DNA of 64,000 nucleotides from Candidatus Hydrogenedentes bacterium ADurb.Bin170. Its GTDB lineage: Bacteria > Hydrogenedentota > Hydrogenedentia > Hydrogenedentales > CAITNO01. This document shows, piece after piece, positions 47,901-59,316 of the stretch (within the stretch, counting starts at the first letter, position 1; each line of letters begins with the position of its first letter). Location of the stretch: the NCBI GenBank assembly GCA_002070275.1, contig MWCY01000016.1:1-64000 (forward strand). Reading direction: 5' to 3'. Below the pieces are notes generated by a model, which did no database searches, was not told the origin of the DNA, and saw nothing but the letters and a program-made list of their open reading frames with translations. The translations under genes were made by a program, and so were the position numbers.

Positions 47901-48599
47901 ATGCAAATTGAGGATCGCGTCATTCACTTCAGCGCAGAATTGATTCACCATCCCCTGCCCATAGAGCGGCAGCAGCTTCAGAAACTGTATTACGACCTGT
48001 CGCAAACACGTGCCGCCTATGACAGCATCGACATTTCTGTGCCAACTCAGGCAAAGTTCCATTCGCAACGGGACAAGGCCCAATCCATCATGCTCCATCT
48101 GCCTGAGCGGATTCTTATGATCGAGGAATGGGCAGATATCCCGTTGAGTACTTTTGCTGAAAAACTGCATACTGCTGTCCCGCTGGTACTGCAAACGCAG
48201 AATATTGCACAAATTTTGCTGCATGCCCTCACCGTACGGTCCACCTTTGCGCTCACCCATTTTGATGACGCACGCATTTTTCTTCTGGATCATGCCTGCC
48301 ATCTTGCCGGGCGAATCAACCCGCACTTCCAACGCCCTCTTGCCACAGGCGGGCTGAGATTTGTATTCCCGGAAACCAACGAGCACCGGGGCACGCTTCA
48401 TGTGAATATCGAGTCTTTCAGACACAGTGCCAATGAGATTTTTGTTGAAGTCAAAGGCATTTTCGGAAGACAGCCGGTAGATGCTGATCATGTCGGTGTT
48501 ATTACCGACAACCTTCGTGCGACCCGTTCTTTCATTACAGAAAATGTCTTTCCCTTTCTGCAGCAGTTTGATGCGAATCCTGAGCAGGAATCACCATGA
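47901..48599 (+). CDS. Unknown 232-residue protein
   Basis: I do not recognise this protein. ATG 47901 follows AGAGGAAG. It has no signal peptide and no membrane segment. The sequence mixes helices and strands, for example RQQLQKLYYDLSQT, IEEWADIPLSTFAEKL and the closing ITENVFPFLQQF. An opposite-strand frame of equal length overlaps it (47793-48491), but that frame lacks a ribosome site and looks like a shadow. A promoter-like pair and 221 nt separate it from the radical SAM gene downstream, so operon membership is unclear. Confidence 0.65.
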   Translation: MQIEDRVIHFSAELIHHPLPIERQQLQKLYYDLSQTRAAYDSIDISVPTQAKFHSQRDKAQSIMLHLPERILMIEEWADIPLSTFAEKLHTAVPLVLQTQNIAQILLHALTVRSTFALTHFDDARIFLLDHACHLAGRINPHFQRPLATGGLRFVFPETNEHRGTLHVNIESFRHSANEIFVEVKGIFGRQPVDADHVGVITDNLRATRSFITENVFPFLQQFDANPEQESP

Positions 48600-48733: not shown

Positions 48734-48761
48734 TTGACTCTTTCACATTATTTTCTTTAAA
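48734..48761 (+). promoter_or_regulatory. Candidate promoter of the radical SAM-carbamoyltransferase pair
   Basis: -35 TTGACT (48734-48739), a 16-nt spacer and -10 TTTAAA (48756-48761), 60 nt before the ATG at 48821. Confidence 0.4.
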
Positions 48762-48820
48762 CTGAAACACTTGTAATCAAGCAACTTGAAGCATTATTCC
48801 GTTATAAAACAGGGTACCTG

Positions 48821-49801
48821 ATGTTCCATGTATTCAGCCTCGCAAAGGCGCTGATCAATATCCACCTGCTGAAAAAACGAACCCCTCTTTTTCTCTCCTG
48901 GAACATTACTTTTCGCTGCAATCTGCGGTGCCAATACTGTGCCGCCTGTGATGCCCCTCCCGAAGAACTGACAACAGAGGAAATTAAAGCGGGTCTGGAT
49001 GCGCTCTGGAAACTTGGAACAAGATGGATCACTTTCGGCGGCGGCGAACCGCTCATCCGTCAGGATATAGGCGAAATCGTCCAATACGCACGCTCCAGAG
49101 GATTCCAGTGCTATCTCAGCACCAATGGCTCTCTTTTAAAATCAAAACTGGAATCGATCAAGCCCGGGGTACAGCATATCAACTTGAGCCTGGACGGAAG
49201 CGAAACCGTTCATGATCAGGTACGGGGCAAAGGCAGTTATGCAAAAGCTATCGAGGCACTGGAACTGTGCAAATCTTCCGGCACTTCAGTAAGCCTGCAA
49301 TGTGTGCTGAACCGGTATAATCTCGATGATTTTCATAAGGCAGTGGAAACGGCGCAGCACTACAAAGTGCCGATTATGTTTCAACCTGCAACAAAATGGC
49401 TCAGCACATCTCTGGAAAGTAATCCCATCGCCCCTGACACGGCCCCTTACCGGGAAGCAATTCAAAAGATTATCGCCCTTAAACAAAGAGGCGCGCCCAT
49501 CCGCAATTCCTATACAGGGCTGAAGCATCTTGCCCACTGGCCCGACCCCCAGCCCATTTTCTGCGCTGCGGGAAAGTCCATGGCAATTCTGGAAGCAGAC
49601 GGCTCCATGCTCGCCTGCCATCAATGTCAGGTAAAAGACTTTCTTCACGGGACAGCGGCTTCAGGGACATGGCCGGAAAAATTTAAAAACATGCCGTTGC
49701 CGAAGCACTGTGCACAATGCTGGTGCGCTCCCGTGGTAGAGCTTTGTCTTTTTTTCTCTTTAAAGCCCGAAGCAATGCTCAACGCATTGCGCTACAGATA
49801 A
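48821..49801 (+). CDS. Radical SAM protein with C-terminal cysteine-rich (SPASM-like) region
   Basis: A 326-residue radical SAM enzyme. The [4Fe-4S] motif is CNLRCQYC, with cysteines near 34, 38 and 41, followed by an unusual extra Cys pair (AACD). GGGEPL is the SAM-binding GGE motif; STNGSLL and NLSLDGSE continue the barrel. The C-terminal third has further cysteines (FCAAG, LACHQCQ and CAQCWCAP), resembling a SPASM/twitch region holding an auxiliary cluster. Such enzymes modify peptides or lipids (PqqE/HpnH-like), but the substrate here is unknown. A carbamoyltransferase gene starts 57 nt downstream on the same strand. Confidence 0.85.
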   Translation: MFHVFSLAKALINIHLLKKRTPLFLSWNITFRCNLRCQYCAACDAPPEELTTEEIKAGLDALWKLGTRWITFGGGEPLIRQDIGEIVQYARSRGFQCYLSTNGSLLKSKLESIKPGVQHINLSLDGSETVHDQVRGKGSYAKAIEALELCKSSGTSVSLQCVLNRYNLDDFHKAVETAQHYKVPIMFQPATKWLSTSLESNPIAPDTAPYREAIQKIIALKQRGAPIRNSYTGLKHLAHWPDPQPIFCAAGKSMAILEADGSMLACHQCQVKDFLHGTAASGTWPEKFKNMPLPKHCAQCWCAPVVELCLFFSLKPEAMLNALRYR

Positions 49802-49858
49802 ACTATTCTGTAAATGTGTCACGGCCTGCATTCAAATTAACAGTTTAACGGAGAAGCC

Positions 49859-51580
49859 ATGCCCATCTGGCTCGGTATAAATGAAGATCTGTTTGATTCC
49901 GGTGTTGCCTTGAGTGACGGCGAATCTGTTCTGTTCGCATCCAATGAAGAACGTTATTCCCGTCGTAAAAACGAGGGCGGTTTTCCGCACCGCGCTCTGG
50001 AATCTCTCTTCCAGTATACGGGTATTGCTCCGCAGGATGTTGATTACATATGCATGTCCGGGCTCATGACACCGCCTCCGCCTGTACGGCTCCTCCCCCG
50101 ATCCCATCAATGGCTCTACAATGCCCGTCGCGAAAAGAAAGAATCGAGGCTGAGAAAGCTTCTGGATGACCTCACTTTTTACCTGCCTGTATCCCACACC
50201 TCGAACCGGTCACTGCTGCGGAAATGCTCGCTTCCTTTCCTGCCTTTCATGACCCGTATGGTGCTGCCCCATCCTTTAAAGAAGAAACCCCTGCGTTATG
50301 TGGAACATCATATAGGGCATGCTGCTGCCGCCTGGAAACTTTCCGGCTTTGAAGAAGCTCTGGTGCTGTCCGTCGATGGCATGGGTGACGGTTTATCCCT
50401 GCTTGTCCTGCAGTGCACACCCGGGCAGCCTATGCGCCGGTTGTGGGAAGTATCTTCCCGCGACAGTCTGGGACTCTTCTTTCAGGTTATGGCGGAAGTA
50501 TTCGGCTTTGTTTCCTGCCGTGATGAAGGCAAAATAACCGGTCTTGCTGCAAACGGCTCGTCGGAAAATGTGGATTTTCCCTTCCCTTTTGAATATGCCG
50601 AAGGAAGGCTCCGATTCACGGGTCAGTTCGGGTTTGGGCAACGGGGCATAGACTGGGCAAAGAAAATGCTTGGCGAACGCTATGCCCGTGAAGATCTGGC
50701 GGCGTGGGCGCAGGACAATCTCGAAAAATATGTAGTGCAGATTGCCCGGGATTTTTTAAGAAAGACAGGGCTGAGGAGACTGGCAGTCACGGGCGGTGTT
50801 GCCGCGAATGTAAAGCTTAACCAACGCCTTCACGAGATACCGGAGGTTGAGCAGTTGTTTGTTTTGCCTAATATGGGCGATGGAGGCCTTGGACTGGGCG
50901 CTTTATGTGCTCATGATGCAGTTGCCCCGCATCGCGTGCCCGATGTGTTCTGGGGTGAATCCTATACAGATGCCGAAATTAAATCTGTGCTGTCACAGTC
51001 CGGTCTTCCCTACCGACGCGTAGAGGCCATTGAAAACACAATCGCCGACCTGCTTGTCAAAGAATTTCTTGTTGCGCGTTTTACCGGGCGTATGGAATGG
51101 GGACCCCGCGCTCTGGGCAACCGCTCAATTCTGGCGAAAACGACGGACAGCAAAGTGGTCACCCGGCTGAACGCTCTTCTTCAGCGCAGTGACTTTATGC
51201 CCTTCGCACCTGCTGTGCTCGCCGAAGATCTGGACTTATACTGTCTGAACACAGGCGCAGGGCGCCACGCCGCTGAATTCATGACTGTCTGCTTCGATTG
51301 CACGGAAAAAATGAAACAGGAGAACCCTGCCATTGTTCATGTGGACGGCACAGCGCGCGCTCAGGCAGTAAGTGCCGGAGCGAATCCTGATTTTTATAAG
51401 ATCCTGAAAGCCTTCAAAGATATTTCCGGAAGCAGCGTTCTTCTCAACACCAGCTTTAACGTCCACGAAGAGCCCATTATTCGAACACCGGAAGAAGCGA
51501 TTACCGCTTTTAAAAAAGCACGGCTTGATTATCTTGCAATCGGCCCCTTCCTCGTAGACGGCTTTCCCATCTGCAGATAA
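49859..51580 (+). CDS. NodU/CmcH-family carbamoyltransferase
   Basis: A 573-residue enzyme that would transfer a carbamoyl group from carbamoyl phosphate, through carbamoyl-AMP, to a hydroxyl of a sugar or natural product. The kinase-like domain has the metal-binding HHIGHAAAAW and LVLSVDGMGDG; GGVAANVKLNQ follows. The C-terminal adenylate domain shows MEWGPRALGNRSILA and LLNTSFNVHEEPI. In the usual N-terminal HDS[SA] motif the His is Phe here (LFDSGVAL). Length fits the family. The neighbour is a radical SAM gene, suggesting joint tailoring of a sugar, lipid or small molecule. GGAG lies before the ATG. Confidence 0.9.
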   Translation: MPIWLGINEDLFDSGVALSDGESVLFASNEERYSRRKNEGGFPHRALESLFQYTGIAPQDVDYICMSGLMTPPPPVRLLPRSHQWLYNARREKKESRLRKLLDDLTFYLPVSHTSNRSLLRKCSLPFLPFMTRMVLPHPLKKKPLRYVEHHIGHAAAAWKLSGFEEALVLSVDGMGDGLSLLVLQCTPGQPMRRLWEVSSRDSLGLFFQVMAEVFGFVSCRDEGKITGLAANGSSENVDFPFPFEYAEGRLRFTGQFGFGQRGIDWAKKMLGERYAREDLAAWAQDNLEKYVVQIARDFLRKTGLRRLAVTGGVAANVKLNQRLHEIPEVEQLFVLPNMGDGGLGLGALCAHDAVAPHRVPDVFWGESYTDAEIKSVLSQSGLPYRRVEAIENTIADLLVKEFLVARFTGRMEWGPRALGNRSILAKTTDSKVVTRLNALLQRSDFMPFAPAVLAEDLDLYCLNTGAGRHAAEFMTVCFDCTEKMKQENPAIVHVDGTARAQAVSAGANPDFYKILKAFKDISGSSVLLNTSFNVHEEPIIRTPEEAITAFKKARLDYLAIGPFLVDGFPICR

Positions 51581-51736
51581 TACTCAGAAGACACCGACTA
51601 AAAAACCTCTGTCACATCTGCATAAAAAAAGGAGTTTCTGCTTTTATCTTTGGATTTATGAAGTGTCTTTGTGTATGGTATGAAATCTTCAGTTACAGCA
51701 CTGGTTTCAACTTTTTACTTTTACAGGAATTTTGGC

Positions 51737-58206: not shown

Positions 58207-59316
58207 ATGACAATTCCCATGGTGGATTTGCGTGCCCAGTATCACGCTCTCCGCAAAGAGATAGAAAAAGCAGTGCTTTCCGTTCTGGAGCGGCAACAGT
58301 TCCGGGGTGGCAGCGACGTGGAATCCTTCGAAAAAGCATTGGCTGATTTTGCGGGAGTAAAACATGCTCTCGGGGTTTCCTCCGGGACAGATGCGCTGCT
58401 GCTTCCGTTAAAAACTCTGGATCTTCAGCCGGGCGACGAAGTCATCACGACGCCTTTCACCTTTTTCGCTACAGCCGGCGCTATCGTAAATGCAGGCGGT
58501 ATTCCTGTATTTGCCGATATTCTTCCCGACACTTTTACGGTGGATCCGCAGTCGGTCCGCCAATTAATTACTCAGAAAACGCGCTGCATCCTGCCCGTCC
58601 ATCTGTACGGACAGTGTGCCGATATGGACGCTTTAACCGGCATCGCCACGGAGTACAATCTTCCCATTATCGAAGATGCGGCGCAAGCACTGGGTACTCG
58701 CATGAATAACCGGCAGCCCGGAAACTGGGGAATCGCTGCAGCGTTAAGTTTTTATCCCACCAAAAATCTGGGCGCCGCCGGAGAAGGAGGTGCCATCCTT
58801 ACCAATGATGATGCGCTGGCGGAAAAACTGCGTATGCTGCGCTGCCACGGGGCAAGCGCCCTCTATCAGCATGCGCTGGTGGGAACCAACAGCCATTTAC
58901 ATACAATTCAGGCGGCTGTACTGGCAGTAAAACTGAAATATCTGGCACAGTGGAACGAAAAGCGCCGTGAAAAAGCCGCTTATTATACGCAATGCCTGAA
59001 GGATGTACCCGGCATTATCCCGCCCGTGGAACAGGATGGCATGTATCATGTCTATCATCAGTATGTAATTCGCATACCGCAGCGCGACCGTGCCCGGCAG
59101 CTGCTGGCTGACCGGGAAATAGGCAGCGGCGTTTTCTATCCGCTGCCGCTCCATCGACAGCCTTGTTTTCAGGCATATGTTTCAGCGAAGGCTTCCTGCC
59201 CGGAAGCGGAAAGAGCCTGCACAGAAGTGCTCGCTCTGCCTGTGTTTCCGGAGCTGACAACGGAGCAACAGGATCAAATCATCGAGGTGCTCCGGAATCA
59301 CTGCGCCTCTCTCTAG
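58207..59316 (+). CDS. DegT/DnrJ/EryC1/StrS sugar aminotransferase
   Basis: A 369-residue PLP enzyme of the usual family length. It starts IPMVDLRAQYHALR. Seen are SSGTDALLLPLK, TPFTFFATAGAI, IIEDAAQALG with the PLP-binding Asp, and the internal aldimine lysine in FYPTKNLGAAGEGG. This form matches enzymes making UDP- or dTDP-amino sugars for lipopolysaccharide or other surface glycans. AGGAG lies before the ATG. The gene stands behind its own promoter and is followed 58 nt later by a sugar isomerase-like gene. Confidence 0.93.
   Translation: MTIPMVDLRAQYHALRKEIEKAVLSVLERQQFRGGSDVESFEKALADFAGVKHALGVSSGTDALLLPLKTLDLQPGDEVITTPFTFFATAGAIVNAGGIPVFADILPDTFTVDPQSVRQLITQKTRCILPVHLYGQCADMDALTGIATEYNLPIIEDAAQALGTRMNNRQPGNWGIAAALSFYPTKNLGAAGEGGAILTNDDALAEKLRMLRCHGASALYQHALVGTNSHLHTIQAAVLAVKLKYLAQWNEKRREKAAYYTQCLKDVPGIIPPVEQDGMYHVYHQYVIRIPQRDRARQLLADREIGSGVFYPLPLHRQPCFQAYVSAKASCPEAERACTEVLALPVFPELTTEQQDQIIEVLRNHCASL

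Follow-up and report, generated by a model that had tools for sequence, protein, structure and literature searches.

The window analysed here is a 64,000-nucleotide stretch (positions 1 to 64,000 of contig MWCY01000016.1) of the Candidatus Hydrogenedentes bacterium ADurb.Bin170 genome (GCA_002070275.1), a 3.5-Mb assembly of 164 contigs which is 96% complete. The locus is composed of two genes on the forward strand: rSAM-A1 (48821-49801), encoding a 326 amino acid radical SAM enzyme (PF04055, E 1.6e-27) predicted to be of the Twitch type, and CT1 (49859-51580), encoding a 573 amino acid class III (NodU/TobZ-type) carbamoyltransferase (PF02543 and PF16861). The stop codon of the first and the ATG of the second are 57 nt apart (49802-49858, forward strand). 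Coordinates, common strand and spacing were all as given in the first-pass annotation, which had also named CT1 a NodU/CmcH carbamoyltransferase; this identity is supported by matches to Carbam_trans_C (E 3.6e-56) and Carbam_trans_N (E 1.2e-34), both above the gathering score, and by an E of 1.1e-56 against TobZ. CT1 falls in a non-canonical subfamily in which EDLFDSG replaces the HD[SA] motif, and reaches 99 bits against the 1000-bit cut-off of the NodU equivalog NF041651. The promoter-like site reported 5' of the pair is present (TTGACT/TAAACT, 48734-48763, forward strand) and has no value as evidence, since such sites are no better than chance, two being found against 3.5 expected in shuffled sequences.

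In a survey of 60 relatives and 68 Hydrogenedentota genomes, a CT gene of the same subfamily lay directly 3' of 15 out of 25 rSAM-A genes, in three Hydrogenedentota families and with both genes on one strand at all 15 loci. The pairs are found in family f1 (given as genome and contig: G000:C16, G003:C7, G016:C132, G014:C58, G007:C152, G015:C917, G015:C326, G011:C1264, G010:C68 and G005:C201), in family f7 (G039:C175, G022:C32, G034:C109 and G029:C6) and in family f10 (G031:C348). This adjacency is far above chance. The rSAM-A and CT trees give matching, highly supported groups (the window group, the f7 group, G005/G010 and G007/G015); the agreement concerns small groups, with the deeper forks open. 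The genome of the window carries a second copy of each gene, rSAM-A2 (C14, 53%) beside an aminotransferase gene of the DegT type and CT2 (C2, 54%) on its own. In G001, of the same genus, CT1 is fully syntenic with the window, no remnant of rSAM-A1 is found 5' of it, and CT2 is missing; as CT1 and rSAM-A2 are kept, each function is left once. In G006:C41 (10955-11200) CT, next to an intact rSAM-A, ends after about 35 codons and is immediately followed by what we take, from its sequence, to be an RmlA-like gene; this CT remnant is a natural loss or recombination scar.

A pairing conserved across many phyla was not found: in one pattern-based scan, a type of search which can miss relatives, the close relatives of rSAM-A were confined to Hydrogenedentota, and outside that phylum a single deltaproteobacterial MAG held a relative, at 31%. 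The Cloacimonadota relatives of the radical SAM protein (25-30%) were rejected as carriers of the module, CT being absent nearby. The deltaproteobacterial contig (VGRB01000113.1, 4962-10966) carries a tandem DegT-rSAM-DegT-rSAM arrangement beside a B12-binding radical SAM gene (B12-rSAM), without CT, and independently supports the partnership of DegT with radical SAM enzymes.

The pair is often part of a longer gene run. A PF03706 membrane protein is often encoded directly 5' of rSAM-A, and in f7 and f10 the order is PF03706, rSAM-A, CT, HisH2, HisF2 and WbuX, followed by the B12-rSAM and a PMT-type membrane glycosyltransferase (loci L078, L074 and L075 of f7, the last ended by the contig edge, and L068 of f10). 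In G018:C6 the genes for PF03706, CT, HisH2, HisF2 and WbuX are contiguous, and rSAM-A lies on a separate contig beside rSAM-B, a second radical SAM protein with a true SPASM domain. The curated NCBIfam cut-off for the AglZ/HisF2 acetamidino family is exceeded by HisF2, and that of TIGR03573 by WbuX of this genome. The DegT aminotransferase of the module is nearest to PseC and DesI; its gene adjoins module genes in f7, rSAM-A2 in this genome and in G001, and CT in G007, G008, G013 and G016, and in G005, G007 and G010 it starts right at the rSAM-B stop or overlaps it. In six f1 genomes (G000:C76, 968-4616, and relatives) rSAM-B is part of a conserved run of five genes, which holds small lipoprotein-like, TPR and membrane proteins.

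Presence of the families was scored in the 68 genomes, which are MAGs throughout, so that incompleteness blurs absences. rSAM-A, CT and DegT were each found in 21 genomes, PF03706 in 18, rSAM-B in 19 and the WbuX subfamily (matches of 189-228 bits, the clade clustering as K3) in 20; a clear score gap lay below the matches for all but DegT, which had one borderline extra (G002, 5e-102). rSAM-A and CT occur together in 20 genomes (hypergeometric p 5e-15), and since kinship makes genomes non-independent a second test permuted the presences inside each taxonomic family (p 5e-5); for all 15 pairs of families the hypergeometric p is at most 9e-11 and the within-family p ranges from 5e-5, the floor, to 5e-3, all these values being descriptive because thresholds were set after the searches had been viewed. 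Same-genus pairs hold the whole set or none of it, G031 having six of six and G036 none, and G018 six of six and G026 none, while G060, sole member of family f5, has five of the six. Exceptions are G050 (60% complete), with CT, rSAM-B and WbuX and no rSAM-A or DegT; G010, without WbuX; and G006 with its truncated CT. At least six families, namely rSAM-A, CT, DegT, PF03706, rSAM-B and WbuX with HisH2/HisF2, are co-inherited, mostly unlinked in this genome. The set is found in a minority of Hydrogenedentota and was previously undescribed, and we did not find the combination in the open-access literature.

Scattered as they are, the six families could feed more than one glycan. We regard it as unlikely that they are merely co-resident and serve several separate surface glycans, with rSAM-A and CT a two-gene unit making its own product: the genome of the window has the parts spread over six or more contigs, with unrelated neighbours beside rSAM-B and WbuX, but the contiguous run of f7 and f10, the all-or-none contrasts within genera and the permutation within families speak for one module.

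The gene at 47901-48599, suggested as third member in the first-pass annotation, belongs to an unannotated single-copy family that no Pfam or NCBIfam model matches; 54 of the 68 genomes have it, with or without the pair and on other contigs than the pair, and its within-family permutation p, computed as a control, is 0.81 to 1.0, so that it shows no link by phyletic profile. It is a phylum-wide core gene and was dropped as a pathway partner. Three of its four f7 copies and one more have an in-frame stop inside the open frame of the match region; in the f7 genomes (G022, G029, G034 and G039) several matches of rSAM-B and of this gene contain one in-frame TAA or TAG near one or other end of the match, probably reflecting extension of the match at its start or end. 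Also rejected were the window's DegT/DnrJ gene near queA (58207-59316), which is of a different DegT group, with about 25% identity to the module DegT; the PQQ-like propeller at 51671 together with the genes around it, common only to G000, G001, G007 and G015 (K28); K11-K14 beside rSAM-B, confined to f1; and the Na/H exchanger K10 beside DegT, also a neighbour in G002, which lacks the rest.

PF03706 includes lipid flippases, and HpnH- and HpnJ-like radical SAM enzymes act on hopanoids. A modified membrane lipid, such as a carbamoylated hopanoid or polar head group, in place of a glycan would agree with the lipid-handling PF03706 fold and with weak matches under the cut-offs, of rSAM-A to HpnH (3e-23) and of B12-rSAM to HpnJ and HpnR. 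We give such a product a low probability, as DegT and WbuX/HisF2 are sugar enzymes and only 4 of the 68 genomes, all of them without the module, have a squalene-hopene cyclase; a hopanoid was rejected on the latter count.

The active site of CT differs from that of the known enzymes. The four metal ligands of GdmN are two histidines and two aspartates (PMC9633730); the corresponding H150, H154, D173 and D341 of CT are invariant and aligned with GdmN H133, H137, D156 and D333, and the GPRALG and LNTSFN motifs are conserved in the subfamily. H27 of the HD[SA] motif is the general base of GdmN, and its H27N mutant is inactive (PMC9633730). Each of the 20 aligned members of the CT subfamily has Phe or Tyr at this position, within the sequence ED[LFM][FY]D[SA]G; the histidine is kept by all 11 of the other Hydrogenedentota CTs and by TobZ, for which the PDB alignment supplied the row. 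Further downstream H536-E537 (LNTSFNxHE) is common to all 20 members, where the other CTs have other residues and Gly-Glu. With a mean column identity of 65%, the protein is under strong constraint. From these alignments, the role of the lost histidine may be taken by another base, for which the clade-specific H536-E537 is a candidate, or the acceptor may be an amine instead of a hydroxyl, giving a ureido-sugar; an amine, which would need no base, could come from DegT. The loss leaves room for CT not being an ordinary carbamoyltransferase. That it no longer transfers carbamoyl at all, as a regulatory or otherwise inactive relative, is very doubtful: the dead GdmN mutant and the replacement in every member would fit, but the metal ligands, both motifs, a new invariant His-Glu and the strong constraint argue against it.

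The first-pass annotation had described rSAM-A1 as SPASM-like, of which the radical SAM part holds and the SPASM part does not. The cluster motif CxxxCxxC (C33, C37 and C40) is intact and G74-G75-E76-P77 (GGEP) is invariant, which places the protein in the radical SAM superfamily. The SPASM domain is defined by the seven-Cys motif CX9-15GX4C-gap-CX2CX5CX3C-gap-C (PMC6231123). rSAM-A has five C-terminal cysteines (C248-X12-G-X4-C266 and C297-X2-C300-X-C302, that is CX12GX4C-gap-CX2CXC) and no match to PF13186; since these are five and not seven, it is best described as Twitch-like, a shortened SPASM, in agreement with the Twitch pattern of CX9-15GX4C and later cysteines for one auxiliary cluster. 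Across an alignment of 22 rows, C33/C37/C40, GGEP, C248-X12-G-X4-C266 and C297/C300 never vary and C302 is kept in 90% or more; in one relative, G018:C228, most of the C-terminal cysteines are missing.

Among solved folds, the AlphaFold2 model of rSAM-A (mean pLDDT 89.7) comes nearest to BlsE (7vob; Z 25.2, 16% identity), with an rmsd of 3.2 Å across 290 residues; SkfB (Z 23.5), SuiB, PqqE and viperins come next, and DesII and BtrN stand lower, at Z 18.6 and Z 14.9. BlsE catalyses the decarboxylation of cytosylglucuronate, and the predicted fold would fit a sugar substrate without establishing one; as the peptide enzyme SkfB is within 2 Z units of BlsE, the match of a radical SAM fold cannot fix the reaction. 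It is highly improbable that the locus serves RiPP maturation, with rSAM-A a SkfB-like Twitch peptide maturase and CT decorating the peptide, for although SkfB, SuiB, CteB and PqqE rank high among the solved folds closest to it and SkfB shares the five C-terminal cysteines (PMC6231123), the 326-aa protein gave no match to an RRE domain and its radical SAM core begins at about residue 20, the NCBIfam maturase models are far under cut-off, and beside the pair no small ORF recurs (80-aa limit) but DegT, PF03706, HisH2/HisF2/WbuX and glycosyltransferases do.

With a sugar aminotransferase, a sugar amidotransferase system, membrane glycosyltransferases and PF03706 as partners, a surface-glycan sugar is the most economical reading. 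We consider it fairly probable that the pair is a unit of a co-inherited sugar-modification module, its product most likely an unusual amino-, amidino- and carbamoyl-decorated sugar of a cell-surface glycan. The PseC/DesI/ArnB-like DegT would aminate a nucleotide sugar or lipid-linked sugar; rSAM-B (SPASM) and rSAM-A (Twitch) would change its carbon skeleton via a 5'-deoxyadenosyl radical, by oxidation, deamination, decarboxylation or epimerisation as in DesII, BtrN and BlsE; and HisH2-HisF2-WbuX would convert an acetamido into an acetamidino group. CT would use carbamoyl phosphate and ATP to form carbamoyl-AMP and would carbamoylate the sugar, the PF03706 protein may carry the lipid-linked product over the membrane, and where PMT-type or GT9-type glycosyltransferases are linked they may hand it on. 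In this scheme the sugar substrate, the succession of steps, the radical chemistry, the flipping and the final glycan and product are our inferences. More tentatively, the pathway may make a sugar not yet described, for example a ureido- or carbamoyl-acetamidino sugar, in a Hydrogenedentota surface glycan, with a CT that departs from the His mechanism of TobZ and GdmN by using a different base or by accepting an amine. The earlier idea of a small undescribed pathway acting on a sugar or glycolipid gains from the adjacency, the co-occurrence, the contiguous sugar amidotransferase genes and the lack of a matching paper, and has to be enlarged from two or three genes to at least six families. The analysis thus ties a concrete group of co-inherited genes to a surface sugar yet to be described, in a phylum represented here by MAGs alone, and shows that scattered genes can be linked by phyletic profile; a CT subfamily without the catalytic base offers a means to test the accepted mechanism of the family.

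A precedent for a CT-family enzyme decorating a surface-glycan sugar is WapO, the Pseudomonas LPS-core carbamoyltransferase acting on Hep II, a likeness drawn from its description and not from sequence; that description mentions no radical SAM partner (PMC8005017). With TobZ, GdmN and NovN the CT described here shares the Kae1-like and YrdC-like domains, the aligned metal ligands, GPRALG and LNTSFN, but it differs in the Phe/Tyr at GdmN H27, in the clade-specific H536-E537 and in its partnership with radical SAM and sugar-amidation genes. The HisH2-HisF2-WbpG/WbuX system for acetamidino sugars of O-antigens is matched by HisF2 and WbuX, which pass the curated cut-offs and are contiguous with CT in f7, f10 and f3; the WbuX group of the module (189-228 bits) is distinct from a higher-scoring group (249-347 bits) found elsewhere in Hydrogenedentota, outside the module. 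BlsE, DesII and BtrN have the fold in common with rSAM-A (Z 25.2, 18.6 and 14.9) at an identity of just 16%, 13% and 16%, so that the likeness is one of fold. DesII acts after the DegT aminotransferase DesI, and rSAM-A2 and rSAM-B adjoin DegT in the genomes described here.
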